DNA from: an uncultured Planctomycetaceae bacterium
GTDB lineage: Bacteria > Planctomycetota > Planctomycetia > Planctomycetales > Planctomycetaceae
DNA: 64,000 nt
Direction: 5' to 3'
Assembly: GCA_903858815.1 (NCBI GenBank)
Contig: CAIOKE010000324.1
Location: 1-64,000, forward strand
In this document: piece after piece, positions 31,995 to 47,681 of the stretch
Numbering within the stretch: position 1 is the stretch's first letter
Layout: every line of letters begins with the position of its first letter
Position numbers and translations under genes: made by a program
The notes under the pieces: model-generated
What the model saw: only the letters and a program-made list of their open reading frames with translations
What the model was told of the DNA's origin: nothing
Database searches by the model: none

Positions 31995-32654
31995 TCAGGC
32001 GTTTGGTGCGGCGACGGCTTTTCGACGATTCAGCAGACGACGGGCGCCAACACCAGCAACCCCAATCAGCAGCGCCCATGTGGATGGCTCTGGCACGGTG
32101 CGCTGTAATGTCAGGGACTCAGTCGCAAAGCTGGACTCAATGATCGCGTAGGACCCCTGCTGCGGCAATAGTGAGGTAGCGAGAATGGTGTCGATATTTG
32201 CCTGAGAGGCGAAGCCCGAATTATCAGCAGGTGTGCCATCGAGAGCCAGGCTGAACACACTGCGTCCTGTTCCGCGATTACCAGGATCCGAATCTGGAGC
32301 AAAGTTCGCAGTGATCTGCAGCCGTGTCGGATTCTCCATCCTCAGCTCGCTGATTACCGGGGGAGCCCCAGATGGAGCGTCAGGGACCAGAATGTTCCAC
32401 GTTTCACCGCCGATCTTCATGGTCGCAGCGGTCAACGATGCAGTCGCAGCCGCAGGTGCCGGAGTGTAGGTTCCGGTGAACGTCCAAATCTGTCCAATAA
32501 ATGAACTGCCACCCACCGTCGACGACGTGACAACGCCGTAAAGGAAGACCTGATTTGCCGACGCCGCAGCGCAGGAACAGAGAACAGCACAGGTGGTCAA
32601 AAGTCTGACGGCCAGCGACCGCGTTTTGGCTGGTGCCTTGCACTTCAATTCCAT
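31995..32654 (-). CDS. PEP-CTERM protein, substrate A of the exosortase locus
   Basis: A 219-residue exported protein with a signal peptide (about 1-33, ending AAASA), a beta-rich body and a PEP-CTERM tail: VPEPSTWALL, a membrane span, then the basic RRLLNRRK. The body begins NQVFLYG, contains GTYTPAP and ends with the ASQANIDTIL segment, landmarks shared with the three other PEP-CTERM proteins of the window, so they are likely paralogues. An exosortase would cleave near the PEP motif and release or anchor the protein at the surface. Start: ATG at 32654 with GGAG eight bases before; longer in-frame starts lack a leader. The exosortase gene is 7.5 kb away on the same strand. The function of the body is unknown. 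Confidence 0.88.
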   Translation of the reverse strand: MELKCKAPAKTRSLAVRLLTTCAVLCSCAAASANQVFLYGVVTSSTVGGSSFIGQIWTFTGTYTPAPAAATASLTAATMKIGGETWNILVPDAPSGAPPVISELRMENPTRLQITANFAPDSDPGNRGTGRSVFSLALDGTPADNSGFASQANIDTILATSLLPQQGSYAIIESSFATESLTLQRTVPEPSTWALLIGVAGVGARRLLNRRKAVAAPNA

Positions 32655-32933
32655 GTTTACACTCCATGTTGCCAACAATCGACGACCGAACAAATCATAA
32701 AGGCGTAATTTGCCGGGGGATTCGGTTGCGTCGAATGTGAGATTTGCAGTAAGGAGTGAGTCTTGGTGGGGGAGGGGAGATGAAGCAACGGGGCTGTTAA
32801 AATTGTGTGGTGTTTTTTCAACAGTATGAGCTGGATAGTGATCCAATCCGCATAATCGTTACATCTTAACGCAGTGCGGTTTGAGTACTTTCGCGGGTGT
32901 CTGCACTGTTTTTGATGTTTTCTGGGCACATGT

Positions 32934-32972
32934 GGTGTCGTTTTCACTTTTATCAGTGAAAGTCAAAACACC
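32934..32972. other. Extended imperfect inverted repeat
   Basis: GGTGT, two bases, TTTTCACT, a six-base loop, AGTGAAA, then three bases and AAAACACC: the outer GGTGT/ACACC pair and the inner TTTCACT/AGTGAAA pair form one 39-base hairpin. It stands about 280 bases upstream of substrate A. It could be an operator, but no regulator is identified. Confidence 0.45.
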
Positions 32973-33044
32973 AAAGAAACGCTCAAAGTACAATGAAGTG
33001 CGCGGTATGAATGAGTCCTTTGGATAAAGGAGTGGACAATAGTC

Positions 33045-33081
33045 CTCGCTTGGGAATTCGAGGCACCCGCCGAGCCGAAGG
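33045..33081 (+). repeat. Degenerate copy of the dispersed GGCTC/GAGCC repeat
   Basis: It carries the CGCTTGGGA prefix seen at 16961-16969 and the CCGCCGAGCCGAA half, but the first stem is altered (GAGGCACC), so the hairpin is partly lost. Confidence 0.6.
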
Positions 33082-33253
33082 TGGAATCGGTTCCTACTCG
33101 TTAATGCTTCCTCCGACTATTCGGCAGTGGTGCAAACACTGCGAGTGAATCGCTAATCCTGCTTTCTGGGACGTCTCGATTCTCAGTGGACGACACATTG
33201 GCAGGACCACTGGCAATGACCGCTACAGTGCGCACATGATTTCGCGTAGATCC

Positions 33254-33288
33254 AAAAAAAACCTGACGGTTGATCTCAGCCCGTCAGG
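33254..33288 (-). terminator. Strong intrinsic terminator of the dehydrogenase-rhodanese gene
   Basis: On the minus strand CCTGACGG pairs with CCGTCAGG and is followed by eight T. It lies about 35 bases past the stop codon at 33322. Confidence 0.9.
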
Positions 33289-33321
33289 CGTGGTTTTTCG
33301 GCAAATCGCTGAATCCAGTTG

Positions 33322-36300
33322 TCATTCTGCCTTGCGGAAACCTGCCTGCAGCAGGTTCTCGTAGCCCGCTCGCAAAGGACGGATGTCATATCCTTTACCC
33401 TGCAGGATTTCCGCACACATCAGCACGCGACCACCTGATTTGCAGTGCAGATAGACTGGCTTGTCTTTCGGTAACTTCTGCAGTGCTTCTGCCAGCCCCG
33501 GTCCTTTCAGCGAACTGAGAGGAATGAAAGTCGCATCGGCCAAATGGCCGGCGTTCCACTCGTCCTGCTCGCGGACATCGATCAGAACAGCCGTCTTTTC
33601 AATGATCTGCTGTTTGACGGAATCCAGTGTATCCACGGTATGTCCGGCATTGGTGAATTGTGGTGTCATCTTTTTGGCTCCTTGTTGTTGAACTGCTGCC
33701 GTCTTTTTCCGGGTTGCGAAGACTGGTGAGTCCGGGTCGCCGCCGGACTGAAGATAGGCGACCAGATCGAGCACTTCTTCGCGGCTGAGCGTATTGATCA
33801 GTCCCGCGGGCATCATCGAGACCTTTGATGCCTGCGTTTCCTCGATTTCATCGCGTGGGATCGTCGTCAGTGCGCCCGGTTCAAGCATGTTTTCACAGAC
33901 CATGATCCGGTCGCTGTTCAGGTTCACAACTCGTCCGGTCACTGTCCGGCCACTGTCGAGAAGAAACACTGACGCTTCGTACTGGTCAGAAACAACCTTG
34001 CTGGGCTCGATGATCGACTCCAGCAGGGTGCGTGCGTTGTAGCGACGTGACACTGCCGTCAATTCCGGTCCCACAATTCCTCCGTCACCAGCAAAACGAT
34101 GACATTTGTAACAGGCTGTGACCTGAAACATGCGTCGGCCGGTGTCGAACGATCGACCTGTCAGACCGGACTCGACGTCTGCGAGGAAATCATCCACCTT
34201 CCACTCCTGGACGATAGGTCGAGCAGCGGCTTCAACGAGCGGCTGACCGCCAGTCGGCTGCGCCTCAAGAACCTGCTTCAGTTCCACCTTCTCTGCGTCA
34301 GTCAGTCGATCAATAGCCTCCTGACGGATGTTTTTCAGGAAACCTGAAAATGAATTGCCACCACGCAGCGTGGTCGAGGTCACAAACCACTGAAAATACT
34401 TCTGCCGTTGCTCCAGTGTCCACGGCCCCTTCAAGGCACGCAGACAATACGCGTAGTGGATCTGCTCCTCCTGACTGGGAGCATTGGACTGCAGAGCCAG
34501 CGTCTTGTCTGCAACACCATCGGCGTTCAGGTACACAAGGATGCGACACAGTTCACGATTCAATCGCACACTCTTCGCCGGGTACATCGGATTCAATACG
34601 GCGGCCACAGATTTCGCCACATCGGCCGAAGGTTCACCCATGCGGATAAAACACAAGCCGGCGACTCGTAGCGCAGACAACAACTGCTGTTCGGTCAATT
34701 CTGAGCCGTTCAGACGTCCCAGGGACTCCAGCAGTGACTGCTGCAGGGATTTGTCTCCACAGCGAGCCAGAGCAAGCAGCGCGGTGATTTTGGCATCGCT
34801 GGACGAGCTTTCCTGCAGGGCCCGCTCGGCCCACGATGCCACTGGCTGATGCTCGATGGCCGTGCGAGCTGCAAACCGAATGCTGCGATCAGCATGCCCC
34901 AGATAGGGCCATGCTTTCTCAACAGCTCCGTCCTGCGGACGATGCAGTTCTTCAAGCGAGTGACGCAGATCGCGAGCTTCCTGGCCGGCCAGATCCACGG
35001 GCCCCGGCTGAACTGACTCTTTGCCAGTGTAGGTGACTCGATACAGACCACTCTGAGTCCGACGTCCACCAATCGTGAAGTACATGGCCTTGTCAGCAGG
35101 ATTGATGATCACATCTGTGACGGGCAGCGGCGCGGCCGAAATGAACCGCTCCAGCTCACCGGTGTAGGTGCTGCCGGATGCGGTCATGTGCACCGCATAT
35201 ATCACACCATAGCTCCAGTCGCTGATAAACAGTGCCCGTTGGTACTTGTCAGGGAATTGTGCCCCGGTACCAAATGTGATGCCCGTGGGCGAACCCGGGC
35301 CGATGTCGACCACGCTGCCCAGTGAATCAGGATAGAATTCCGGCCACTTGCCGGTTCCCGAACGCCAGCCGAATTCCGAACCGCTGGTCACATGATTGAC
35401 TCGCGTCGGACGATACCACGGTGAACCCACGTCCCATTCCATGTCCGCGTCGTAAGTGAACAGTTCCCCCTGAGCATTCAGAGCAATGTCGTACTGGTTA
35501 CGGAATCCCATGGACAGCAGTTCCCAGTCGGCCCCGTCAGGACTGACTTTTGCAATCCAGCCACCGGGCGCCATGATCCCCACGGCATGCCCGCCCGCAT
35601 CCCACATCCGCGGCAAAAGCTGATCCTCATCCCAGATCTGTGGTACACGCGACGAGGAAAATTTTGTCGGGGGGGTGTGGTTGCCGCAGGCGACCAGCAA
35701 CGACTTTCCATCCGGCGACAGAATGATCGCATGCGGCCCGTGTTCATTGCCACCCTGCAATGTTCGCAGGTGCTCGGTCATGTCATACTGGTCGTCACCA
35801 TCAGTGTCACGCACCCGGTGCAGGCCTACTCTCGGAGCATCACCGCTGTTGGTCATCACGTACAGACTGTCAAACGCGCACAGCAGTCCCTGAGCCATAC
35901 CAACATCGACGTTGATCAACTCGATCTGAATCTTTGCATCACTGCCGATTGCAGGAGGCGTAACACGGTACAATTTGCCGTACTGGTCTGAAACAATCAG
36001 TCGTCCCTTCGGATCCGAAGTCATGCAGACCCACGAGCCCATTTTCTCAGCTGGTACCGAATACAGTAACTCGGCTTTGAAGCCAGCTGCCAGTTTCAGA
36101 TCATTCACGGGTGTGGCTTCGGGAACGGGAGCCCCATCGTCCGTCAGCACGATACTGTCAATCTCCATCTGACCGCCACGGCTGAACGGATCGATCCGCA
36201 GTGAGGTCACAGGGCTGTCCGTTTCGAACCAGACACGGGCGGTTCGAAATTCCTTATCAGAGCCACGCAATTCGGTGCGAACAGACTTGTCTTCGGATGT

Positions 36301-36603
36301 CACCGGAGACGCCTCGGTTGTCCAGAACACCTGAATGTCGGCATTACCTTTGAAGCGGGCACTGATTGACAGGCGGTGGTTGCCCGCTCGTCCCTGCACG
36401 CTGGCGGAGAGGAACGGATCGCCACCTTTTGCTCGCAACTGCAAATGCCCGTCTGCGGTGGATAACTGGACTTGATCGTTGCCCGTCCAGACAGTCTCGG
36501 CAGAATCAAAGTCCCAGCGAGCGATTTCGTCCGCGGGCGATAAGCGGGAGAACACAAGGGGCAACAGTAGGGCGAATACTCGAATTTTGAAGCGGGTTGT
36601 CAT
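33322..36603 (-). CDS. PVC-type membrane-bound dehydrogenase/cytochrome c with a C-terminal rhodanese domain
   Basis: A 1093-residue secreted protein. Layout: signal peptide (1-24); a beta-sandwich domain (about 27-155); a glucose-dehydrogenase-like beta-propeller starting NDLKLAAGFKAELLYSVP (about 165-530); HEAT-like helices (about 545-800); a PVC heme-binding domain with CYKCH at 830-834 and the EPSKVVSDQYEA and EEVLDLVAYLQSGG segments; then, after a short Lys/Gln linker, a rhodanese domain (about 980-1090) with the active-site loop HCKSGGR, Cys1054. Dehydrogenase-cytochrome chains are common in planctomycetes; the rhodanese addition is unusual. A strong ribosome-binding site before Met979 suggests the rhodanese may also be made alone (see separate entry). 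The gene lies between PEP-CTERM genes but has no PEP signal itself. Confidence 0.9.
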   Translation of the reverse strand: MTTRFKIRVFALLLPLVFSRLSPADEIARWDFDSAETVWTGNDQVQLSTADGHLQLRAKGGDPFLSASVQGRAGNHRLSISARFKGNADIQVFWTTEASPVTSEDKSVRTELRGSDKEFRTARVWFETDSPVTSLRIDPFSRGGQMEIDSIVLTDDGAPVPEATPVNDLKLAAGFKAELLYSVPAEKMGSWVCMTSDPKGRLIVSDQYGKLYRVTPPAIGSDAKIQIELINVDVGMAQGLLCAFDSLYVMTNSGDAPRVGLHRVRDTDGDDQYDMTEHLRTLQGGNEHGPHAIILSPDGKSLLVACGNHTPPTKFSSSRVPQIWDEDQLLPRMWDAGGHAVGIMAPGGWIAKVSPDGADWELLSMGFRNQYDIALNAQGELFTYDADMEWDVGSPWYRPTRVNHVTSGSEFGWRSGTGKWPEFYPDSLGSVVDIGPGSPTGITFGTGAQFPDKYQRALFISDWSYGVIYAVHMTASGSTYTGELERFISAAPLPVTDVIINPADKAMYFTIGGRRTQSGLYRVTYTGKESVQPGPVDLAGQEARDLRHSLEELHRPQDGAVEKAWPYLGHADRSIRFAARTAIEHQPVASWAERALQESSSSDAKITALLALARCGDKSLQQSLLESLGRLNGSELTEQQLLSALRVAGLCFIRMGEPSADVAKSVAAVLNPMYPAKSVRLNRELCRILVYLNADGVADKTLALQSNAPSQEEQIHYAYCLRALKGPWTLEQRQKYFQWFVTSTTLRGGNSFSGFLKNIRQEAIDRLTDAEKVELKQVLEAQPTGGQPLVEAAARPIVQEWKVDDFLADVESGLTGRSFDTGRRMFQVTACYKCHRFAGDGGIVGPELTAVSRRYNARTLLESIIEPSKVVSDQYEASVFLLDSGRTVTGRVVNLNSDRIMVCENMLEPGALTTIPRDEIEETQASKVSMMPAGLINTLSREEVLDLVAYLQSGGDPDSPVFATRKKTAAVQQQGAKKMTPQFTNAGHTVDTLDSVKQQIIEKTAVLIDVREQDEWNAGHLADATFIPLSSLKGPGLAEALQKLPKDKPVYLHCKSGGRVLMCAEILQGKGYDIRPLRAGYENLLQAGFRKAE
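33667..33683 (-). promoter_or_regulatory. Apparent internal ribosome-binding site and start for a stand-alone rhodanese
   Basis: Inside the long gene, AAGGAG (33683-33678 on the minus strand) precedes an in-frame ATG at 33669 by eight bases, an ideal spacing. Translation from it would give a 115-residue protein that matches exactly one rhodanese domain, with the active-site cysteine at residue 76. This could be a second, cytoplasmic product, or a relic of two once separate genes. Confidence 0.5.
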
Positions 36604-36910
36604 GATGGACGCTCTTGCGTGGTTTCAAGTTTTATGGGTTTCAAACCGCCACCGCCAGAAGTCCAAACGACTGGTCAGGTGATGCGCGTGAGTCTGACAG
36701 AGAGCGGATATCACTGCAACTGAATTCACCGTCTGGCAGAGGTGGTGCGGTTTACTCAATTGTACTGACGAAAGCTTTGCATTTTCCAAAAAGAAGGCCC
36801 CGTGACATTACAAATGTTGCTGGTGGGTTTTCAGGTTTCAGCCACGATCAAACGAAAAAGGCCCGGCAGAGAACTGCCGAGCCTTCGTAAACACATCAAT
36901 ACTTGTTACG
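36604..36910. other. Short intergenic stretch holding a terminator
   Basis: A 307-base gap between substrate B and the dehydrogenase-rhodanese gene, both on the minus strand. It contains the terminator of substrate B at 36855-36883 and must contain the promoter of the downstream gene. Nothing else was recognised. Confidence 0.5.
36855..36883 (-). terminator. Intrinsic terminator of PEP-CTERM substrate B
   Basis: On the minus strand GGCTCGGCAG-ttct-CTGCCGGGCC (one G-T pair) is followed by five T, 28 bases past the stop codon. Confidence 0.85.
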
Positions 36911-37528
36911 TCAAACGGCCGCAGCGGCACGACGGCGCTTCAGGCAGCGACGACCAACCACCGCACCGACTCCAGCCAGAACACACCATGTCGACGGTTC
37001 CGGGACTGCAGAAAATCCGGTGAGGTCATAATCTGTGTCTGGAAGACTTCCCTGCCCGTTAACGCTGAGCGAGCCAATTACTGACACTGCATTCGCGATC
37101 AGAAAATTGACATTCGCCTGCGAAGCAACCAACGATCCTACTGACTGACTGCTGACAACCGTCAGAATGAGTTCGGTGCTGCTTGTACCGATCGCGTTTC
37201 CGGTGTCACCCACCCAGTTCGCGTTGATCGTCAGTGTATTCGCCGATGCAACTCGAACGCGGTTTTTGCCGGCAGGCAGACCACCCTTCAAGTCCGTGAA
37301 GTTCACGGTGGAAGAACCATTCATGCTGAGAGCAAGGCTAGCCGAGTTCAGCACAGCGTTTGCTGTCGCACTGGGAGTGTATCCAACATTGCTGAGAACG
37401 AATGAACCTAAAACTACCGGGCTGACGTTGGCAGTCCTCGCCTGACCAGCAAAAAACAGTGGGTTCGCTGAAGCAGAACCACAAGCCATTAACACCGCCA
37501 CAACCATCAACAGAGATCTTCGCATCAT
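36911..37528 (-). CDS. PEP-CTERM protein, substrate B of the exosortase locus
   Basis: A 205-residue exported protein: signal peptide MMRRSLLMVVAVLMACGSASA, a beta-rich body starting NPLFFAG, the YTPSATANAVLNSASL landmark, a NANWVGDTG segment shared with substrate C, the ASQANVNFLI segment shared with substrate A, then VPEPSTWCVLAGVG, a membrane span and RRCLKRRRAA. It is a likely exosortase substrate. Start: ATG at 37528 (or 37525). The only purine-rich element before it is a run of nine G five bases away, which doubles as the ribosome-binding site. It has its own terminator. The body has no recognised enzymatic motif. Confidence 0.88.
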   Translation of the reverse strand: MMRRSLLMVVAVLMACGSASANPLFFAGQARTANVSPVVLGSFVLSNVGYTPSATANAVLNSASLALSMNGSSTVNFTDLKGGLPAGKNRVRVASANTLTINANWVGDTGNAIGTSSTELILTVVSSQSVGSLVASQANVNFLIANAVSVIGSLSVNGQGSLPDTDYDLTGFSAVPEPSTWCVLAGVGAVVGRRCLKRRRAAAAV

Positions 37529-37533
37529 CTTAT

Positions 37534-37542
37534 CCCCCCCCC
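37534..37542 (-). promoter_or_regulatory. Nine-G tract at the ribosome-binding site of substrate B
   Basis: On the minus strand G9 is followed by ATAAG and then the ATG at 37528. A homopolymer of this length can gain or lose bases during replication, and here it occupies the ribosome-binding position. An identical-length tract precedes substrate C at 38390-38398. Confidence 0.6.
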
Positions 37543-37769
37543 GGGATTGCCAGAACCCACCGAGTGACAATCAGCAAGCAGGCTGTCAAACAATTGGAAC
37601 GAACGCCATTCAGAATCCTGAACAGTGAGTATCATTACAATTCGGGGAGTTTACGCAATCCTTAGAGCTTGCCTTTTTGAAAAAAAAGCAAACGCAGTAC
37701 TACGGGTGGGAAAAGATCGTTTACAAAAATCACTTTCCGCGCCTGCCGAAACTACATGCTTCTCCGCGA

Positions 37770-38375
37770 TCAAGCAGATAAAATACGCCGATTTCGCAAT
37801 ACTCGGCGTCCAATCACACCGCCCACGGCGGCCAACAATGCCCATGTTCCTGGTTCTGGCACTGCCTGGGGAATTCCTACCAGAATTTGCTCGGTGTCAC
37901 CAAATGGGGCAAATGGATCGAATTCAAATGTCCCGGAAATACTCGTGGCCGTGTTCATGATGTGGGAAACATTCGCCGCACTCGCAATCTCCGTAGGAAC
38001 TGCCGTCGGAGAGACAATACTCAAAGTGAGTTTGCTCAGATTCGTTCCCAAAAGACCCGACTGATCGCCTGTCCAGTTTGTGCGAACCCGGAGGGTATTC
38101 TTGTTGGTCAAGACGGAAACTGTATTCGTCTTGCTGCCATCGAGTGCGGACCATGTATACGTGCCACCACCCACACGATTCACGACCAGCGAAGCCTGAG
38201 TAATGGCGGCCACTGCCGTTGCCGAGGGTGTGTACTGCAGCAACAGAGTCCACGTAGAACCCGCGTCTGTTGCCGCTGATGCCCCCTCCAATACTCCCGT
38301 TACGTAAATTGACTCAGCTCTGGCTGGCGACATACCCAACAGCAACGCACACACGCCGCAAAGTACGAATTTCAT
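37770..38375 (-). CDS. PEP-CTERM protein, substrate C of the exosortase locus
   Basis: A 201-residue exported protein: signal peptide (about 1-20, ending SPARA), a body starting ESIYVTG, then STWTLLLQYTPSATAVAAIT, a TNWTGDQSGLLGTN segment like that of substrate B, a SAANVSHIMNTATSISGTFE segment like that of substrate D, and the tail VPEPGTWALLAAVGGVIGRR. Start: ATG at 38375; a run of nine G lies 14 bases before it. The gene is 88 bases downstream of the TPR gene on the same strand and could be the last member of an exosortase-TPR-substrate operon. No enzymatic motif was found. Confidence 0.88.
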   Translation of the reverse strand: MKFVLCGVCALLLGMSPARAESIYVTGVLEGASAATDAGSTWTLLLQYTPSATAVAAITQASLVVNRVGGGTYTWSALDGSKTNTVSVLTNKNTLRVRTNWTGDQSGLLGTNLSKLTLSIVSPTAVPTEIASAANVSHIMNTATSISGTFEFDPFAPFGDTEQILVGIPQAVPEPGTWALLAAVGGVIGRRVLRNRRILSA

Positions 38376-38389
38376 GTTTGACACCGCTT

Positions 38390-38398
38390 CCCCCCCCC
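38390..38398 (-). promoter_or_regulatory. Nine-G tract upstream of substrate C
   Basis: On the minus strand G9 is followed by AAGCGGTGTCAAAC and the ATG at 38375. The tract is the same length as the one before substrate B. It lies in the 5' leader at the edge of the ribosome-binding region. Confidence 0.55.
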
Positions 38399-38463
38399 AA
38401 AGAATCACAAATTCAGATTCAGGCCTTGAACAGACAAAGGCCTTTGCGATATCCGCAAGCGTT

Positions 38464-40179
38464 CTATTTCTCGCGATCGGTAGACGAAGGAACACCATCG
38501 CTTTTCCGCAATTGTTCAACCATAGCTCGGTGAATTTCCGCCTTCGGAAGATTTCCAGCCGCCTCCCAGGCTTTTGCCAGGTGCTCGTGCACTTTGTGCA
38601 GGTTCTGACGATCACTCAAGGCTCGCTCAAAGTCAGCAATTGCCTCAACCACTTTTCCCTGCCGAAGCAGAATCTTCCCCCGAGTGTCGTAAATAGCTGG
38701 TTCGTCCGGCAGGTATTTCAGAGCCTGTTCCACCAGCACCAGAGCCTGTTCCATGTCGGCCTCCGGTTGCTCCACCATCACATCCGCCACATTGTTCAGC
38801 AGGCCCGGCATCCCGGGCGCATGCTGGTTGGAAATCTCGAAATGCTCCATTGCACTGGCGATGTTCGCGGGTGACTTCGATAATTCTCGAGTCCCCAGAA
38901 TGAAGTGGACGGTTCCCGGGGAGACGCCAGCAACCAGGGCGGCCTCCAGCTGCTGCTGCAACCGTTCGTCCGAAAGTTCACGCACCCCGCCAGTCAGGGC
39001 TAACTCGTCAGTGACACGTGGATCGGAGGGACTCAGATTGATCGCTCGAGTGATCTGGTCAAGAAGCATGGCGACATCGGTATCGGATCGAACCGGTTGC
39101 GTTCGTAATCGCGCACAGTGATACAGGTAAGTCTGCAGCAGCAAGTCCTTCAGTTCCTCTCGGTGTCCACTGTTCGACTCTGCCGCTTCAATGATCAAAG
39201 TTGCAGCATCCAGTTCTCTTTGTGCCAACAGCAAGGCTCGAACGAGGCGTACAAACTCCTCCAGTACAAAAGGTTTGTTTGAAGAATTCTGCAGCATTTG
39301 CTGGGCCGCAGCGTCTGCAGCAGCCTGTGCGTCTGCCGTGTTCCCAAGACTTGTCTCGACCTCAGCCAGTGAAAAGTAGGCCTCCGCAAATCCGCCTTTT
39401 GGTTGCCTGATCAGCGATCTCAGCACAGTTCGGGCGAGTGTATTCTCCCCGCGCATCATGAGGCCAGTGGCCCGCATAAACAAGGATCGGGAATGCTCGG
39501 GATTGCGGCTGAGGATCCATTGCAGCGTCGCGTCAAGCCCTTCCCACGACTGGTCATCCGGCAGTTTTTCTGCGGCAAACCTGCGAAATCGTCGTTCGGC
39601 CAACCACTCCCCGGCTTTCAAATACCCGGACTGCCTCATCACCGCTGTGGCCGTCTGCCAAGCTCGGTCCTCTTCCCCCTGTTCAGCCAGCAGCACAGCC
39701 TTTTGCAGCACATGATCAGGCTCTTCCGGCTGTAACACAGCCAACTGTCGCAGGAAGAATTCAGCCCGCTGGTACTCTTTCGCCTGCAGTTGTATACGAA
39801 AGGCTGCTCGCGCTCGCAGCAGCAGTTGTTGCTCTGTCGGCACCAGCCACAGCTCCAGCAGCACCGGACTAAATACTCCGAGCACTGCAGGCAAGCCTGT
39901 CAGGAAATGCAGAAACTGTCGCGTCTGAAGAAATCGCAGCAGGAACGCAAATGATTGGATCGCCCAGAAAATGGGATTGATGTAGCTCAGCCCGGCAGGC
40001 ATCTTACGCTGGTCTGACCCACTGAGCGATTGGCTGCTCTCACGAATCCTCAGGACCTCACGGAACCAGCGTTTCCATCCGGCCCAGGATTTCCCCAACT
40101 TTCGTTGGTAATAACCAAATGTTGTCGACAGCCACTTCTTCAGTGCTGGTATGCTGAATTTTTTCCTACGACGGCTCAT
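38464..40179 (-). CDS. Membrane-anchored TPR protein coupled to the exosortase
   Basis: A 571-residue protein with a very basic N-terminus (SRRRKKFSIPALKKW), one hydrophobic region around residues 70-115 (NPIFWAIQSFAFLLRF and GLPAVLGVFSPVLLELW) and then a series of TPR-like helical repeats. The last repeats are clearest: YDTRGKILLRQGKVVEAIAD. It is a paralogue of the divergent gene at 42058-43767: both share NP(I/F)FW, PTE, PG(T/F)VHF(I/V)LGTR, PGLxNNxADV and AIADFE in the same order. The start ATG overlaps the exosortase stop (ATGA), so the two are translationally coupled. A scaffolding role in exosortase-dependent sorting is likely but unproven. Confidence 0.85.
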   Translation of the reverse strand: MSRRRKKFSIPALKKWLSTTFGYYQRKLGKSWAGWKRWFREVLRIRESSQSLSGSDQRKMPAGLSYINPIFWAIQSFAFLLRFLQTRQFLHFLTGLPAVLGVFSPVLLELWLVPTEQQLLLRARAAFRIQLQAKEYQRAEFFLRQLAVLQPEEPDHVLQKAVLLAEQGEEDRAWQTATAVMRQSGYLKAGEWLAERRFRRFAAEKLPDDQSWEGLDATLQWILSRNPEHSRSLFMRATGLMMRGENTLARTVLRSLIRQPKGGFAEAYFSLAEVETSLGNTADAQAAADAAAQQMLQNSSNKPFVLEEFVRLVRALLLAQRELDAATLIIEAAESNSGHREELKDLLLQTYLYHCARLRTQPVRSDTDVAMLLDQITRAINLSPSDPRVTDELALTGGVRELSDERLQQQLEAALVAGVSPGTVHFILGTRELSKSPANIASAMEHFEISNQHAPGMPGLLNNVADVMVEQPEADMEQALVLVEQALKYLPDEPAIYDTRGKILLRQGKVVEAIADFERALSDRQNLHKVHEHLAKAWEAAGNLPKAEIHRAMVEQLRKSDGVPSSTDREK

Positions 40180-41441
40180 ACTGTCACCCACATGGTCGTT
40201 GCAGCGTCCGGTGAAAGCTCGACAGTAATTCGGTGTTCAGACTGATCGTCCACGCAGTTCCTGCTGGCCGCTCCAACCGCCGGTGCTTCCGCCGCCTCTG
40301 GCGGGGTTGAAACTGCCGGGATCGCTGGTGGAGGTGCTGGCATGGACCGGAAAAATCCTGGCAGCACCCATGCCGGTGCGGCAGTCAACAGCACCGCAAC
40401 GGCCACCACAATCGCCATGCCACGCTGGCCGCTGGTGAGTGCTGACCAGGTGGCCTGCTCGGAACTGGCGATCTTTTTCGCTTCAGAAGATTCTGCCGGC
40501 ACGACAAACAGCCAGTTCCATGCGAGCACAAACACGTTAATACGGTCGTATTTTCGAGGGTCATCGGGTATTCCACCGAAAATGAACTGAATAAATCGAT
40601 CTGTACTCAGCAGGAACGGGATCGCCAGTCCCATGGCCACATAACCAACCGCGTCATGCTTCCAGCCTGTGGTCAGGTCAACGTTGAATCGCACCTGCGC
40701 GACGGCGATTGCCAGAACGCGACCCACATTCATCAGCAACGCCCAGAAGATCGCGGTGCTCATCAGTAGCCCGGTGCGAACGATCGAGTACTGTCGATAG
40801 GCACCGATGGCTGCGGCGATAAACATTACCGTGAATAGAGACTGAACGCCGGAACATGCCTCGGCGACCATCAGTGGGACGCCAGTCATAGGTTGGAGAA
40901 TGTTTCCCTCTCGAATGTGGTCGATCTTCATCACGTTGAGGAAGTCTGAAGCGATACGGGAGGTGATCAACTGCAGCCGCTGCACGGCTCGTTCGTCAAG
41001 ATTCAGCGGAGGACGCACTGTCATCAGAATCGGGAGTGCGAGGTAAAGCAGTCGTCGTCGTGTGTCCTGTTCTTTCCAGAGGTCCAGCAGGAGTGTGAAC
41101 AGCAGGGAATAGCCGATGTAGCACAGCCATGGAGAAGACCGCAGGGATCCCAAAATGGTGCTTGTCACAGCGATCAGGATCGCTGCCCCTCGCAGCGACT
41201 GTCGCAGCATATTCCCGGAAAAATCGGGTTCCTGAGATGTGCGAAGTGAGGCCAGAAACAGTGTGGAGGCGAACGCAACAGGGAAAAACTGATAGTATTC
41301 GCGAGTCCAGAGTTGAGTCAGGTAGGCGTAGAGAACGGGAGCGAATGCGAGGGACAGGGCACCGAACGCCAGCATCAGTGGCGACCGCAGCAGCTCCGCA
41401 AAACCGGCGGGTTCCTGATTATGAGAAGTCACAGTGCTCAT
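40176..41441 (-). CDS. Exosortase (planctomycete XrtU-like)
   Basis: A 421-residue polytopic membrane transpeptidase-like enzyme that recognises PEP-CTERM tails and cleaves them. About eight hydrophobic segments lie between residues 20 and 345. The catalytic triad expected of exosortases is visible: Cys196 in EACSGVQSLF, Arg241 in MNVGRVLAIA and His262 in WKHDAVGY. After the last span there is a Pro/Ala-rich tail and a short polar end (NCVDDQSEHRITVEL) rather than a full EpsI-type domain. Start: ATG at 41441 with AAGGAA upstream; the long open frame to 41963 has no membrane or exosortase character. It is coupled to a TPR gene downstream, and a TPR paralogue diverges upstream. The XrtU assignment is by overall impression; the exosortase family itself is certain. 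Confidence 0.9.
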   Translation of the reverse strand: MSTVTSHNQEPAGFAELLRSPLMLAFGALSLAFAPVLYAYLTQLWTREYYQFFPVAFASTLFLASLRTSQEPDFSGNMLRQSLRGAAILIAVTSTILGSLRSSPWLCYIGYSLLFTLLLDLWKEQDTRRRLLYLALPILMTVRPPLNLDERAVQRLQLITSRIASDFLNVMKIDHIREGNILQPMTGVPLMVAEACSGVQSLFTVMFIAAAIGAYRQYSIVRTGLLMSTAIFWALLMNVGRVLAIAVAQVRFNVDLTTGWKHDAVGYVAMGLAIPFLLSTDRFIQFIFGGIPDDPRKYDRINVFVLAWNWLFVVPAESSEAKKIASSEQATWSALTSGQRGMAIVVAVAVLLTAAPAWVLPGFFRSMPAPPPAIPAVSTPPEAAEAPAVGAASRNCVDDQSEHRITVELSPDAATTMWVTV

Positions 41442-42057
41442 TTTTTGCGATTCCTTGCCCTGCAGGCAAAACGGCAGCGCGGTTATGGCGATATCTGACC
41501 GGTGGATGACCGCCACCTTGAGGATGTGGGCGCAACCTGATCCATCGTCGTAGGGCAGTCTGCCATACGTGTGAGATTCGTCAGCCAAATTCAGGTTGGC
41601 TGATGGCAAATCGCGGTTGAAATTTGGAAATCTTTCGTCAGGACTGGCATTCGGCGTCAGAATCGTCAGATTCGGATGCTGAGGGAAATTCTGGTATTCC
41701 CGGAAGTGCTTTGCCAGTTTCGGAGGGTATCCCGGGCGTGGCTTTGGAACACACGAAGGAGCGGCCCCACTGCGAGTCGACTGCAGCGGGGGGAGTTTCG
41801 GGAAGTCGGAGTGGTTTGTGGCATCGGCACGGAGTCTGCTGAATTTCTTCAGCGATTTTCCTTTTTTTTTTATGTGGTGGATCGCTTGCCGAATTACCGT
41901 GTGGTAGATTTGATGATTTAGGTTGTTTGCCTTAAATGGTCGGCCTGCCGTGATTCTGCACATTTTCCGGGGGATTCTGTTCGGTCAGGTGGCCGGGTGG
42001 GTCTCCTGATCAGCCAAGCCAAACGATTTCCACCTTTGAACCCCTGCAGGTATCTGG
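41442..42057. other. Divergent control region of the sorting locus
   Basis: A 616-base gap between the exosortase operon (minus) and the second TPR gene (plus). The half near the plus-strand gene is AT-richer and contains ten consecutive T at 41862-41871. I looked for the sigma-54 TGGCAC/TTGC pattern linked to some PEP-CTERM systems and did not find a convincing match. Both transcripts must start here. Confidence 0.5.
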
Positions 42058-43767
42058 ATGTTTCGCTGGTTTAAAAGAACTCGCCGCAGCCTTCGCGACT
42101 GGTCGAAAGACCGCCGTCGTTACCTGCGTTACCAGTGGCACCGAATGCTCAGTGGCATCTTCGTGTGGTGGGAAAGCCTGAAGACATCTCACGAAGACGG
42201 CGTGCCGCTCGCAGAAGTTGGCGGTCGAAAATTTCAGCGTCCGCCGGTCAAGGTGGCCAGTTTCCTGAATCCCTTCTTCTGGTTTGCAGGTGGCTTCCAG
42301 TTTCTTTACCGGTACTTGCTCTCCAGACGCCCAATGGATCTGGTGGTCAGTCTGCCTGGATTCGGCGGAATCTTGGGGACGTTTTTTGTCCTCTACGCCT
42401 ATACCCCCACAGAAGCAGAATTGGTAGAAAACTGCCGCAATCGTATCGAAGTTCTGGGTTCTGATCAGCAGTATGATCTTGCCGTCTGGTATTCGAAGTT
42501 GTGGCAGTCTCTTCAACCGTCCGAGCCAATGGCATACGTAGCCGAGTCGGACCTGTTAAGATTGCAGGGGAAGTCACAGCAGGCACGTGCAGTACTTGAG
42601 CAATTGTTCAGTGTGACTCAGTACGAACCCGCACTGGTTCGAATCTGCCGTGATGACCTTGCATTGGCCACAGCGGGCACGCTCGGCCAGCAGGCTCAAA
42701 TAGACCTGTCCGACCGGCTTGCTTGGTTGGGTGATCGGCTGGCCAAAGATCCTGAGGTGCAGTTCCTTGTGGGTACCTATCACATGGATCGTGGGGATTT
42801 TACTGCCGCTCGGCTGTGTTTTCAGAATGCGGGCGAAACCAAGTCAGAGTACCAGGTTGGGGCTTATCGGTCGCAGGCGATATGCGAATCGCGGTTGGAC
42901 ATGCGGGCTGCGTCGCGTAGTACGGCATCGTTTGGCGCGGACATTTGTCTACAGCAACTGGCGGCATTCGATGCTCGCCCAGAGTCATTGAAGACCTGTT
43001 GCGAACTGCTTGTGCTCAGTTTCCGTGAGTCTGAAGCGGTCAAGCTGCTTGAGGGGCGGCTGTCAAGAGTGTCTGAGAGTGAAGCAGAGCCATTGCGATT
43101 TTTGTTGTCAGAAGTGCTTACTCGTTGGTGTGAACGCAAGCGGGTCGCTGGGTTTAAGAACGCGGAAGAGATGGCTGAGTGCCTGCAATTACTCGGCAGA
43201 GCATTGACTGCATTTCCTCGCAATGAAGGGGCCCTGAACGAAGTGTCGTGGTTCGCGAATACAGCCCCTGACAGCATCGAAGTTGAATCGTTATTGAATC
43301 AGATTCTGGACTCAGGAATTGACCCGGGTTTCGTGCACTTTGTGCTTGGAACTCGTGCCGCCATCAAAAATCCGCCAGATGACGCTGCTGCCCAGGAACA
43401 CCTTGGGCGTGCTATAGCTCACAACGCTGGTTACCCGGGTCTGATGAACAATCTGGCTGATGTGATTGCCAGGACGGAATCTGCTGATGAAGCTCAATTG
43501 AAGAATGCACTCGCGTTGGCCGAGCAGGCTGTTTCACGACTGCCGAAAGTGCCTGAGGTTTACGACACGCGTGGCCGCATTCGGCTGCGTTTGGGCGATG
43601 TTGAATCAGCTATCGCGGATTTTGAGATAGCAATTCGATCTCCAAACTGCCGAGTTTCCAGTTACGAAGGTCTTGCGACCGCCTATGAAAGGTTGGGCAA
43701 TCATGACCGCGCTCAACACTATCGGCAGTTACGGAACAGTTTAGAGGTGTCGGAAGAGTCGGATTGA
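42058..43767 (+). CDS. Membrane-anchored TPR protein, paralogue of the exosortase-coupled one
   Basis: A 569-residue protein with a strongly basic N-terminus (FKRTRRSLRDWSKDRRR), a hydrophobic region around 80-123 (NPFFWFAGGFQFLYRYLL and GFGGILGTFFVLYAY) followed by PTEAEL, and TPR-like repeats to the C-terminus. The C-terminal repeats closely follow the partner gene at 38464-40179, for example PGFVHFVLGTR, PGLMNNLADV and YDTRGRIRLRLGDVESAIAD. Start: ATG at 42058. It is divergent from the exosortase operon and 52 bases upstream of PEP-CTERM substrate D, probably in one transcript with it. It is inferred to be a second adaptor of the sorting machinery, perhaps with a different partner or substrate preference. 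Confidence 0.85.
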   Translation: MFRWFKRTRRSLRDWSKDRRRYLRYQWHRMLSGIFVWWESLKTSHEDGVPLAEVGGRKFQRPPVKVASFLNPFFWFAGGFQFLYRYLLSRRPMDLVVSLPGFGGILGTFFVLYAYTPTEAELVENCRNRIEVLGSDQQYDLAVWYSKLWQSLQPSEPMAYVAESDLLRLQGKSQQARAVLEQLFSVTQYEPALVRICRDDLALATAGTLGQQAQIDLSDRLAWLGDRLAKDPEVQFLVGTYHMDRGDFTAARLCFQNAGETKSEYQVGAYRSQAICESRLDMRAASRSTASFGADICLQQLAAFDARPESLKTCCELLVLSFRESEAVKLLEGRLSRVSESEAEPLRFLLSEVLTRWCERKRVAGFKNAEEMAECLQLLGRALTAFPRNEGALNEVSWFANTAPDSIEVESLLNQILDSGIDPGFVHFVLGTRAAIKNPPDDAAAQEHLGRAIAHNAGYPGLMNNLADVIARTESADEAQLKNALALAEQAVSRLPKVPEVYDTRGRIRLRLGDVESAIADFEIAIRSPNCRVSSYEGLATAYERLGNHDRAQHYRQLRNSLEVSEESD

Positions 43768-43819
43768 GTTTTCTTTTCTGCAAGCAGGCGTTTACCGCTT
43801 TTCACTTTTGGAGGTTTCA

Positions 43820-44482
43820 ATGAAACGTGTTATTTTCTCTGTCCTCGCAGTGCTCGGGTTAGCCGCCAGCGTTTCCGCTGAGCAGGTTTACTTCCGAGGA
43901 ACTGCAACGACCACCGCTGCTCAAGACCCGGCGGGTCTGTTCAATAATCGTCTCTGGACGTTGTTGCTGACTTACACGCCCAACAGTTCCGGTCCGGCAA
44001 CACTCACGGCGGCATCCTTGTTTTTCTATTCCAACAATGCTACTGATCACAAGAACGAGGCTTTCAGTCTAATTGCTGCCAGCAACGTTTCTCAGGGGAA
44101 CGTGATCGAAGTGCAACAGAATTCAGGATCCAACAACGACGGGCTGAAAATTGGGACTGAGTTCGGTCCCTCGGAACTTGGACGCGGAGCCAACTCCGCT
44201 TACTACGATAATCTCGTTATTACGGGTACCTCGGACGTAAGCAATACCAACGGCACCGTGGCCAATATTCAGCAGTTGGCTGCACTTGGTAATTCGGTAA
44301 GCGGGACATTCCGCCTTGATCCTCGCCCATCGGGCTCTGGTACGTTGCAGGTGAACCTGACAGGGTTTGTTGCAGTTCCCGAGCCAAGCACAGTTGCTTT
44401 GCTGAGCGGCGTGGGCCTGGTAATTGGTCGACGAGTTTGGAAACGCCGTTCTGCTAAGAAGCAGAACGTTGCGACCGCTTGA
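43820..44482 (+). CDS. PEP-CTERM protein, substrate D of the exosortase locus
   Basis: A 220-residue exported protein: signal peptide MKRVIFSVLAVLGLAASVSA, a body starting EQVYFRG, then NNRLWTLLLTYTPNSS, a long polar Asn/Ser-rich middle with no counterpart in the others, the TVANIQQLAALGNSVSGTFR segment, and the tail VPEPSTVALLSGVGLVIGRR followed by WKRRSAKK. Start: ATG at 43820 with a perfect GGAGG five bases upstream, unlike substrates B and C. It follows the plus-strand TPR gene closely and is probably co-transcribed with it. No enzymatic motif is seen. Confidence 0.88.
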   Translation: MKRVIFSVLAVLGLAASVSAEQVYFRGTATTTAAQDPAGLFNNRLWTLLLTYTPNSSGPATLTAASLFFYSNNATDHKNEAFSLIAASNVSQGNVIEVQQNSGSNNDGLKIGTEFGPSELGRGANSAYYDNLVITGTSDVSNTNGTVANIQQLAALGNSVSGTFRLDPRPSGSGTLQVNLTGFVAVPEPSTVALLSGVGLVIGRRVWKRRSAKKQNVATA

Positions 44483-44845: not shown

Positions 44846-45401
44846 CTGCGCTGACACAAATGAGATTCCCTGGAATCCACTTGATGAAAGCCCCTCCCGG
44901 CAGACCGCATCGCATGGCACGCTCTCCGTCTCGAGAGACTCTCGCGTTTCCTGCACCCACGCCACCCTCCGACTCCGGTAAGATGGGCGTCAACCCCGCA
45001 ATAGCTGCACCACAGTCCCACTTGAGTGCTTCCACATCTGCTGCCTCTGGATCGGAAGTGGCAGGGCCAGCATTCCGTAAGGCTCCTGCGTGTGAGATTT
45101 GGCGTGGAGGGCTTATCTCGGGCTAAATCGCAAGCTCCGTTTTCGTTTCCGTTCCTCAGGTCGTTGACAACTGCCCCCTCAACGCACCTTGGATGATGCC
45201 ATTCCCATGCTCACCCCCAGTAGGATGGGCTTCGACCCGTCAACGCCTTCAACCACTCGCCTCCAAACACTTTCCTCCCTCCCCTTCCCCCCTGGACATC
45301 GCCCCTCAGGCCGGCGTGGTGGATTTGTCCCTGCGGGTTTGGCACAATGATCTCACCACCGACACCATTTGAGTTCCAGAACGCCACTGTGGATTCCGAG
45401 C

Positions 45402-47681
45402 ATGCTGCATCGTCGTCGCTTCCTCGCTCTTGGCATCGCCACTCCCTTCGGCTCTTTGGCTTCTTTCGGCTCAGAGTCTGCGATCGTGGGCGATCAAATC
45501 TCATCGGGTGGCCTTGAAACGCTGATGAACCAGCGGGGCGGCTGGGATCTCGCGGTTTATCGTCGCATTCTGGGGGCGGCGAATGAGCCGAAGGAGGGGG
45601 ATGCCATTGTTGGCGTCGCGGCTGCAGATGATGCCGAGCGTCAGACGGCTCGGCAAACGCTGCTGGCAACGCGACTTGAGACGATTGATCTGCATCCTCC
45701 GTTTGCCGATGCCTTGTTGACCATGATCAACTCGGCTGTCGATCCCTCAAAGCAACGGGAAATGGGCGCATGGACGTTTGCTCAGCTCAAAGCCGCTTTG
45801 CTGTCGTTACCAGAGCCTGACCTGCACCAACTGCGGCGAGGACTGACCAGCGATGTGATCGCCGTTGTTGTTCGGCTGATGACCAATGAAGAACTGATCC
45901 AACTGGGATCGCGGCTCTTCAATCCGCTGCCAGGATCGAAAATTGGCTCCCGTGGTTACATGGGAGCTCGCATACAACCCAATTCGCCCACAGATCATCC
46001 GGACGACATTCGCTGGCAGGTGTTTGACGCGTTCGCATACGGTGTTGGCGATATTCTGGTTGGCACAAATCCGGTCTCCAGTGAGCCCGCTTCGGTGCTG
46101 GAGGTACAGAACTGTCTGCGGGATGTGCTGCAGACCTTTGAATTGACCGATGTGTTACCGCACTGTGTGCTTTCGCATATTGACGTGCAGTCAACGGTCG
46201 AGCAGCAGGCTCCGGGGTCGACTGCTCTGTGGTTTCAGAGTATTGCCGGCAACGACAGTGCCAATCAGACATTTGATATCAGCGTGGAAAAGATGCGGCA
46301 GCATGCGGCCGGTCGCACTGGTCGGTTTGGGCTGTACTTTGAAACGGGTCAGGGCGCTGATTTCACAAACGGGCATGGCCATGGCGTGGACATGGTCATC
46401 TTCGAGTCACGTAAATACGGCTTTGCTCGAGCGCTGACTGCAGACGTCGCGAAAGCTCTGCAGACCGCAGGCAATGGTCACGCTCCGTGGGTGCACCTGA
46501 ACGATGTGGCCGGGTTTATCGGTCCTGAAGTGTTTCGATCTCGTGAACAACTGGTGCGCTGCTGCCTTGAAGATATCGCCATGGGCAAGCTGCATGGTCT
46601 GACGATTGGCCTTGATGTCTGTTCAACGCTGCATATGGATGTGTCAATTGACGACCTTGGCTGGTGCATTGATCAGATCATGCCGGCGAATCCCGCTTAC
46701 CTGATGGCTTTGCCCACAAGAATCGACCCCATGCTGGGTTATCTGACGACTGGCTATCAGGACCATGTCCATATCCGTCGCAGATTCGGCTATCGCGTGG
46801 ATGATCAGATGTGGCAGTTTTATCAGCAGTTGGGAGTTGTAGCAGAGGATGGTTCACCGGGGCCGGCCTTTGGTGATCCAGGGGCCGTGTATCTGCAGTA
46901 CTGCCGTCGTCGGGGTGATGACCGGGCAGAGGCTGAGATCCGCCGGGAAGCGCAGCAACGGATTGCTGAAGTCCGCAGTCGCGGCGTGTTTCTGGCTGAA
47001 GGCCACGGGGCCCAACCTGAACTTCTGAATCCGGGCCTGCAGGCAGAGATTGACAGAATCTATCAGCAGTCGCGACGAGCGATTTGGCAGGAGATGGACA
47101 GCAGCGTTCTGGCCGCAGTTCCTGATGCCATCCCGTTGACGACGAAATCACTGAATCGAACCGACTATATTCTGCACCCGGCCTCGGGTGAGGAATTGAG
47201 TGATGCATCAAAGGGCATTCTGCAGCGACTGCTGGCAAGTCGCAGTCGTACAGCGGATGTGCAGATTGTCATCTCTGATGGCCTGAACGCTCTTGCGCTG
47301 ATGGAGGCTGACCAGCTTTCGCTGCTGCTGGCTGCACTACGGAAGCAGTTGAAGCTGGCAGGGTTCCCAGCGTTTGACGAGCATCTGCTGGTGACATCCG
47401 GACGAGTACGAGCCGGTTATCGAATTGGCGAACAGGTGTTTGGATCGGCAGGCGGTCGAGGCATTCTGCTGCATATTATCGGTGAGCGTCCGGGGACCGG
47501 ACACCATACGATGTCCATTTACATGACGGCAGCCACTGCATCCGTCTGGGGGCAGCCCGGCACGGTCGACCACAATATCACGCGAGTTGTCTCAGGGATT
47601 GCTCAGACTGCACTGGACCCTGAGGTGGCAGCCATTGATGCCGTGCGAATTCTGAAGACTATGACAGGAACACAGGAATGA
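45402..47681 (+). CDS. eutBC: Ethanolamine ammonia-lyase, fused EutB-EutC, with a Tat-like leader
   Basis: An adenosylcobalamin-dependent lyase that converts ethanolamine to acetaldehyde and ammonia. Both subunits are in one 759-residue chain. The EutB part (about 30-480) has GDAIVGVAAADDAER, GLTSDVIAVV, RIQPNSPTDHPDD, YGVGDILVGTNPVS, LYFETGQGADF and MGKLHGLTIGLDVC. The EutC part (about 575-755) has NRTDYILHP, VQIVISDGLNALA, GRVRAGYRIGEQVFG and HIIGERPGTGHH; the first 100 or so residues of a normal EutC are replaced by a helical linker. The N-terminus MLHRRRFLALGIATPFGSL resembles a Tat signal, odd for a cobalamin enzyme. Start: ATG at 45402. Its stop overlaps the start of the NagA-like gene. 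No microcompartment, reactivase or transporter gene is nearby. Confidence 0.93.
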   Translation: MLHRRRFLALGIATPFGSLASFGSESAIVGDQISSGGLETLMNQRGGWDLAVYRRILGAANEPKEGDAIVGVAAADDAERQTARQTLLATRLETIDLHPPFADALLTMINSAVDPSKQREMGAWTFAQLKAALLSLPEPDLHQLRRGLTSDVIAVVVRLMTNEELIQLGSRLFNPLPGSKIGSRGYMGARIQPNSPTDHPDDIRWQVFDAFAYGVGDILVGTNPVSSEPASVLEVQNCLRDVLQTFELTDVLPHCVLSHIDVQSTVEQQAPGSTALWFQSIAGNDSANQTFDISVEKMRQHAAGRTGRFGLYFETGQGADFTNGHGHGVDMVIFESRKYGFARALTADVAKALQTAGNGHAPWVHLNDVAGFIGPEVFRSREQLVRCCLEDIAMGKLHGLTIGLDVCSTLHMDVSIDDLGWCIDQIMPANPAYLMALPTRIDPMLGYLTTGYQDHVHIRRRFGYRVDDQMWQFYQQLGVVAEDGSPGPAFGDPGAVYLQYCRRRGDDRAEAEIRREAQQRIAEVRSRGVFLAEGHGAQPELLNPGLQAEIDRIYQQSRRAIWQEMDSSVLAAVPDAIPLTTKSLNRTDYILHPASGEELSDASKGILQRLLASRSRTADVQIVISDGLNALALMEADQLSLLLAALRKQLKLAGFPAFDEHLLVTSGRVRAGYRIGEQVFGSAGGRGILLHIIGERPGTGHHTMSIYMTAATASVWGQPGTVDHNITRVVSGIAQTALDPEVAAIDAVRILKTMTGTQE

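Follow-up and report, generated by a model that had tools for sequence, protein, structure and literature searches.

How does an exosortase find its substrates, and what do the accessory proteins encoded beside it contribute? Both questions are raised by a locus in a draft planctomycete genome (genome G000, 6.39 Mb, 99.4% complete). The window analysed here is a stretch of 64,000 nucleotides, positions 1 to 64000 of contig C324, and contains one exosortase gene, two genes for tetratricopeptide repeat (TPR) proteins, and four genes for PEP-CTERM proteins, all at the coordinates given by an earlier reading of the sequence (31995 to 44482; the original prediction). We consider it likely that these genes form a dedicated exosortase/PEP-CTERM cassette from the exosortase U branch, whose exosortase and TPR products work together in an inner-membrane complex. 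The genes are as follows.

31995..32654, minus strand: PEPd, PEP-CTERM substrate, paralogue lying beyond the haem-protein gene
36911..37528, minus strand: PEPc, PEP-CTERM substrate, paralogue
37770..38375, minus strand: PEPb, directly downstream of TPR1, with a predicted beta-rich domain and a C-terminal helix
38464..40179, minus strand: TPR1, with a basic N terminus, one transmembrane segment (TM; residues 95 to 113) and a TPR domain; ATGA overlap with the exosortase stop codon
40176..41441, minus strand: exosortase, 421 amino acids, short relative of exosortase U (from PF09721, start codon, triad and tree)
42058..43767, plus strand: TPR2, divergent TPR1 paralogue with the same architecture (from sequence comparison and the TPR tree)
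43820..44482, plus strand: PEPa, directly downstream of TPR2 (ATG at 43820; the open reading frame [ORF] opens with TTG at 43808)

An intact exosortase, two TPR proteins and four related substrates

The exosortase matches PF09721, the 8-TM EpsH domain (E 1.3e-32; 113.6 bits versus a cut-off of 25.7), and C196, R241, and H262 fall in invariant columns of an alignment with 22 homologues, which bears out the Cys/Arg/His triad of the original prediction. The listed ORF of 595 amino acids is over-long; the likely start is the ATG at 41441 behind AAGGA, giving 421 amino acids. Judged by its sequence, the enzyme would cleave or transfer PEP-CTERM proteins. A catalytic-domain tree, midpoint-rooted and with its deep forks open, places it among planctomycete class-II sequences that include members of NF033780 (exosortase U). 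The XrtU_C domain (NF033780) is carried by the long members of the branch (it is present in L191, L225, and L095), whereas the window enzyme gave no match to it at E 0.1 and is therefore best described as a short derivative, near exosortase U but not filed as such.

TPR1 and TPR2 align at 29% over 547 amino acids (E 1e-53), and both have a basic N terminus, a single hydrophobic segment at residues 95 to 113, and then TPR repeats. TPR1 belongs to the A-group of the TPR tree, and its start codon overlaps the exosortase stop codon as ATGA at 40179-40176, so that the predicted coupling and the predicted divergent paralogue were both found. That the TPR repeat domain is periplasmic is suggested by the basic N terminus, by the presence of just one TM, and by the fused proteins described below.

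All four PEP-CTERM proteins have an N-terminal hydrophobic segment and exceeded the PF07589 cut-off in a genome-wide scan; in single-protein scans, PEPc fell below TIGR02595 (13.9 versus 16) and PEPa and PEPc narrowly below PF07589. Their predicted paralogy was confirmed: they are homologous along their length, at 29 to 36% between most pairs, the similarity of PEPa and PEPd being significant by phmmer and lying mainly in the tail by BLAST. The predicted model of PEPb is good (pLDDT 83), and its fold gave no convincing match in the PDB, nor was there an informative sequence match; assigning the substrates a function from their fold was dropped.

Exosortase and TPR genes are adjacent or fused across planctomycetes

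The original prediction had proposed that the TPR genes be sought beside exosortases elsewhere. Exosortase neighbourhoods were collected from 59 genomes and from 79 named loci of GTDB genomes; after removal of duplicates, 96 exosortases of the window branch (NCBIfam exosortase U and derivatives) had readable context. A TPR gene is next downstream on the same strand for 64/96, in many cases with 4-base overlaps, a further 7/96 are fused to a TPR domain, and 25/96 have neither neighbour nor fusion. Within the 79-locus set, TPR genes are next downstream of 50 of the 86 exosortases, compared with 2 of the 422 other genes there (Fisher P of 5e-43, which is overstated because relatives are not independent). 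Among exosortases less similar to that of the window, a TPR gene is next in 6/28, and one is fused. The co-occurrence was thus found, as a general trait of the exosortase branch rather than a peculiarity of this locus.

The fusions are single ORFs of 1037 to 1053 amino acids in G004, G011, G015, G017, and L192, in each of which an intact exosortase is joined to a complete TPR partner, TM included; two more fusion frames in G005 are open and cut by contig ends. The partner's TM (a ninth TM) and its TPR follow directly after the exosortase core. Most branch fusions form one group (94/83) near split pairs of the type found on contig C173 of the window's own genome. An unrelated class-I fusion of 1788 amino acids (L155) counts as active, and a catalytically dead fusion has 1110 amino acids (L265), with a weak PF09721 match of 19.8 bits, below the cut-off. 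One of the fused proteins was modelled with AlphaFold (mean pLDDT 82): both parts are confident and joined by a disordered linker, and how they are placed relative to each other is not fixed at a pTM of 0.52. Fusion of the genes in three lineages strongly indicates that exosortase and TPR act as one complex. No published description of such fusions was found in a literature search of partial coverage.

Other unusual exosortase genes were seen in this survey. The very large class-I fusion (L155:5412-10778, in G014) combines an exosortase (E 2.6e-59) with many TPRs, and G004:C96 carries an exosortase frame of 1829 amino acids. In some Pirellulaceae loci, two close exosortase genes, one of them divergent in sequence, lie beside a PEP-CTERM or TPR gene (L239:516-7042, L200:7884-11649, and L203).

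Exosortases that have lost catalysis keep their TPR partner

Genome G000 encodes three PF09721 proteins, each with a TPR gene directly downstream. The second, on C173, has an intact triad; no PEP-CTERM gene was detected near this pair in L101:1-20000, where its neighbours are a neutral ceramidase-like gene, DUF1501 genes on both sides, and an esterase/peptidase. In the third, on C243 (L102:9712-10743), all three catalytic residues (Cys, Arg, and His) are gone. Two or three of them are missing from most relatives of this protein within the genus, and where context is readable, the TPR is downstream or fused. Dead homologues occur in several genomes of the genus (L102:9712-10743, L262-L271, L086:9090-10166, and L133:4652-5692), one of them being fused to its TPR (L265:2540-5872).

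That the exosortase-TPR pairing outlives the loss of catalysis would fit a TPR that acts after cleavage, as an assembly or export chaperone taking the cut protein towards the outer membrane or matrix. A substrate gene also lies close behind each TPR gene of the window on the same strand, and the proteobacterial PrsT, a TPR lipoprotein, is needed for PEP-CTERM-dependent flocculation (PMC9850573). However, direct enzyme fusions and stop-start overlaps tie the TPR to the enzyme first, and many TPR-exosortase pairs have no nearby PEP-CTERM gene. We regard such a late role as possible but unlikely, and favour a TPR that acts together with the exosortase.

The substrate family and its sorting signal belong to this exosortase type

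With a profile built from the local four and related proteins, matches that were full-length or clear were confined to this genus (G000, G007, G008, G003, and G009), with weaker or truncated ones in G002, G016, and G010; the best match outside the genus, in another genus of the same family, had an E value of 9e-7. G000 holds four family members, all in the locus. TPR1-type genes (E < 1e-75) occur in G000, G002, G003, G007, G008, G009, and G016. The substrate family is present in all 7 of these genomes and in 1 of the 11 other congeners (P of approximately 2.5e-4 by our own arithmetic, relatedness being ignored), the lone exception being a fragment in G010 that lies at a contig end, next to the haem gene that also flanks the window locus. 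The family is co-inherited with this type of TPR and exosortase.

The sorting signals lie at the following positions.

44372..44449, plus strand: PEPa sorting signal, PEPST...GRR, RR at +17
37785..37865, minus strand: PEPb sorting signal
36932..37009, minus strand: PEPc sorting signal
32037..32099, minus strand: PEPd sorting signal

The first basic residue, as RR, stands exactly 17 residues after the first P of PEP in all four local proteins and in 10 of the 11 family members (a G009 protein has 19), versus 18 to 21 in 12/12 other PEP-CTERM proteins of the same genome. This shorter register may set the recognition of the four proteins apart from that of other PEP-CTERM proteins.

The original prediction had called the locus self-contained, a term that does not fit a genome with two further exosortase-TPR pairs and about 12 further PEP-CTERM genes. 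The latter lie on other contigs, and none of their products is a clear full-length relative of the local four (weak matches, E 1e-4). They follow the same plan of PEP, TM, and basic residues, and the window exosortase might accordingly serve every PEP-CTERM protein that the cell makes, the clustering being incidental. We consider this improbable: the second exosortase, with its intact triad, exists, the local signals have a distinct register, and the substrate family is co-inherited with this exosortase type. The claim of a dedicated sorting system is well supported by the TPR linkage, the co-inheritance of the substrate family, and the signal register of its own.

Two TPR genes probably derived from two ancestral modules

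The gene order in relatives suggests where the second TPR gene came from. In G008, PEPa-TPR2 faces one exosortase gene (XrtB), followed by two other genes and then by a second exosortase gene in the order XrtA-TPR1-PEPb; both modules are also present in G003, where the TPR2/XrtB block lies approximately 13 kb away. In the exosortase tree, the window enzyme clusters with XrtB (100/98) and lies outside XrtA (98/88). In the TPR tree, TPR1 groups with XrtA-linked TPRs (93/90) and TPR2 with XrtB-linked TPRs (88/89). Loss of XrtA by a deletion, bringing XrtB next to TPR1, would explain the combination of an XrtB-like enzyme with an XrtA-type TPR1. The two TPR paralogues thus probably descend from two ancestral exosortase-TPR-substrate modules, one exosortase having probably been lost in this lineage through deletion between two neighbouring copies, and TPR2 looks like a remnant of the second module seen in G008 and G003. 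The wording of two adaptors in the original prediction needs correction in this respect, as the neighbour of TPR2 in relatives is a second exosortase, absent from the window. A chimeric exosortase arising from recombination between XrtB and XrtA was also considered and not adopted, identity along the protein being suggestive at most.

Immediately behind each TPR gene stands a PEP-CTERM gene (TPR1-PEPb and TPR2-PEPa) in G000, in G007 (within its contigs), in G008, and in G009, suggesting a preferred client for each TPR. Two systems might also simply meet here, TPR2-PEPa being independent and no longer in need of an exosortase, beside an exosortase-TPR1-PEPb/c/d unit. TPR2 evolves faster (branch of 1.43 in the TPR tree), and TPR2-type genes without an adjacent exosortase occur in G002 and G013. 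However, the PEPa signal is intact and in the same register, and an exosortase gene lies opposite TPR2 in G000, G003, and G008, which makes two separate systems rather implausible to us compared with descent from two modules that now share one enzyme.

Proposed mechanism

We propose that the four substrates, which carry signal peptides and C-terminal tails, would leave the cytoplasm through Sec and be retained by the C-terminal helix. The membrane-anchored TPR, as an adaptor or chaperone, would then bind either stalled intermediates or the beta-rich domains once folded, presenting them to the exosortase. The Cys/Arg/His site would cut at the PEP motif, recognising the signal with RR at +17, and the exosortase may pass the cut protein to a surface acceptor. 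The single remaining enzyme would serve both TPR partners, each with a substrate gene behind it. The requirement for PrsT in PEP-CTERM-dependent flocculation (PMC9850573) offers a precedent for a TPR protein in such a system.

Several observations weigh against this proposal or parts of it. The 25/96 branch exosortases with no TPR neighbour, about ten of which are one clade in glycan clusters, indicate that the partner is not universally required, and its retention by dead exosortases indicates that it does more than assist cleavage. As the four signals have a common origin, the difference in their register does not represent four independent events. For the origin of the TPR genes, support for the two TPR groups is modest (88/89 and 93/90), that for the exact place of TPR2 is 80/43, and the TPR2-type genes of G002 and G013 lie beside an ABC transporter.

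More tentatively, and with rather less confidence than in the cassette itself, the planctomycete exosortase could be half of a two-part sorting machine whose periplasmic TPR arm decides on the cargo. Catalysis would have been lost repeatedly and the arm kept, leaving complexes of a pseudo-exosortase with its TPR in which PEP-CTERM proteins are held or guided but not cut, and several of these machines could operate side by side in a genome, each with a register of its own.

With a single enzyme, its two TPR partners, and four substrates as a closed set, the locus is a small complete unit for reconstitution. Moving RR by one to four residues would be a quick test of signal specificity under the register rule, and the fused exosortase-TPR is a single-chain structural target in a family for which a profile search of solved structures gave no relative.

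Flanking genes and intergenic region

Two further features belong to the setting of the locus.

33322..36603, minus strand: haem-binding CxxCH protein, PVC-type, with a rhodanese domain, conserved left flank of the locus
41442..42057, no strand: intergenic region of 616 bp between the divergent exosortase and TPR2 genes (from gene coordinates)

The haem-binding gene lies between two PEP-CTERM genes, so that the supposedly self-contained interval also encloses a core gene of the genus as a bystander. It was rejected as a member of the system, being found in all 13 of the congeners searched, the own genome included, with or without the cassette. The right-hand neighbours, for an EutB-EutC-like and an NagA-like protein, were rejected as a conserved chromosomal flank; the former (45369-47681) joins the EutB (64-496) and EutC (565-767) ethanolamine ammonia-lyase subunits in a single, genus-conserved protein of 770 amino acids. 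An S41 C-terminal processing peptidase with a PDZ domain is encoded at 28321-29961, 2 kb from the PEP-CTERM locus. As predicted, no glycan biosynthesis or export genes were found among the window proteins scanned, which do not comprise every ORF; the polysaccharide-export genes of G000 are on contigs C293 and C202.

Between the window and its closest relative, G007, rough NG86 estimates gave nonsynonymous divergence (dN) of 0.28 to 0.42 for the sorting genes and 0.09 for the flanking haem protein, i.e., three to five times faster divergence of the sorting genes. Synonymous divergence (dS) was approximately 1.8 to 2.6 where computable, that of PEPb being saturated. With dN far below dS, the sorting genes are real, conserved coding genes. 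The 616-bp intergenic region is presumably the promoter region of both divergent units; a sigma-70 promoter scan of it gave no convincing site and none better than shuffled sequences.

Comparison with known systems

Among the nearest known systems is exosortase U (NF033780), which belongs to the same planctomycete PF09721 branch and whose long relatives share the downstream TPR gene. Its members have approximately 550 to 650 amino acids and carry XrtU_C, whereas the window enzyme has 421 and lacks that domain. Stieleria-type loci hold glycosyltransferases, in contrast to the surroundings of the window exosortase.

LbcA of Pseudomonas aeruginosa is a TPR protein serving the periplasmic C-terminal protease CtpA, with which it forms a complex. 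The TPR part gave one of its better fold fits to this complex (8sxf_C; target TM-score 0.45), a generic TPR match. The resemblance is confined to the way of working, CtpA being a soluble S41 protease without homology to the exosortase.

The proteobacterial PEP-CTERM/EpsH system with PrsT (TIGR02917) shares with the window an exosortase, PEP-CTERM proteins, and an accessory TPR protein with PrsT-like repeats. Haft and colleagues, who described PrsT as a TPR lipoprotein of proteobacterial systems, raised the possibility that modification is guided by TPR proteins, and Prs genes were near EpsH in only 3/13 genomes (PMC1569441). The lipoprotein PrsT is longer and linked to PrsK/PrsR and sigma-54, whereas the window TPR is TM-anchored and overlaps the exosortase gene; the two window TPR proteins score 79.1 and 34.9 bits, far below the TIGR02917 cut-off of 312.2. 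In another phylum, the exosortase variant XrtF of Flavobacterium johnsoniae has an adjacent partner protein that, according to work cited in PMC12188702, is also needed for surface colonisation, a likeness by description, not sequence. Set beside these, the locus is a variant of known exosortase/PEP-CTERM systems.

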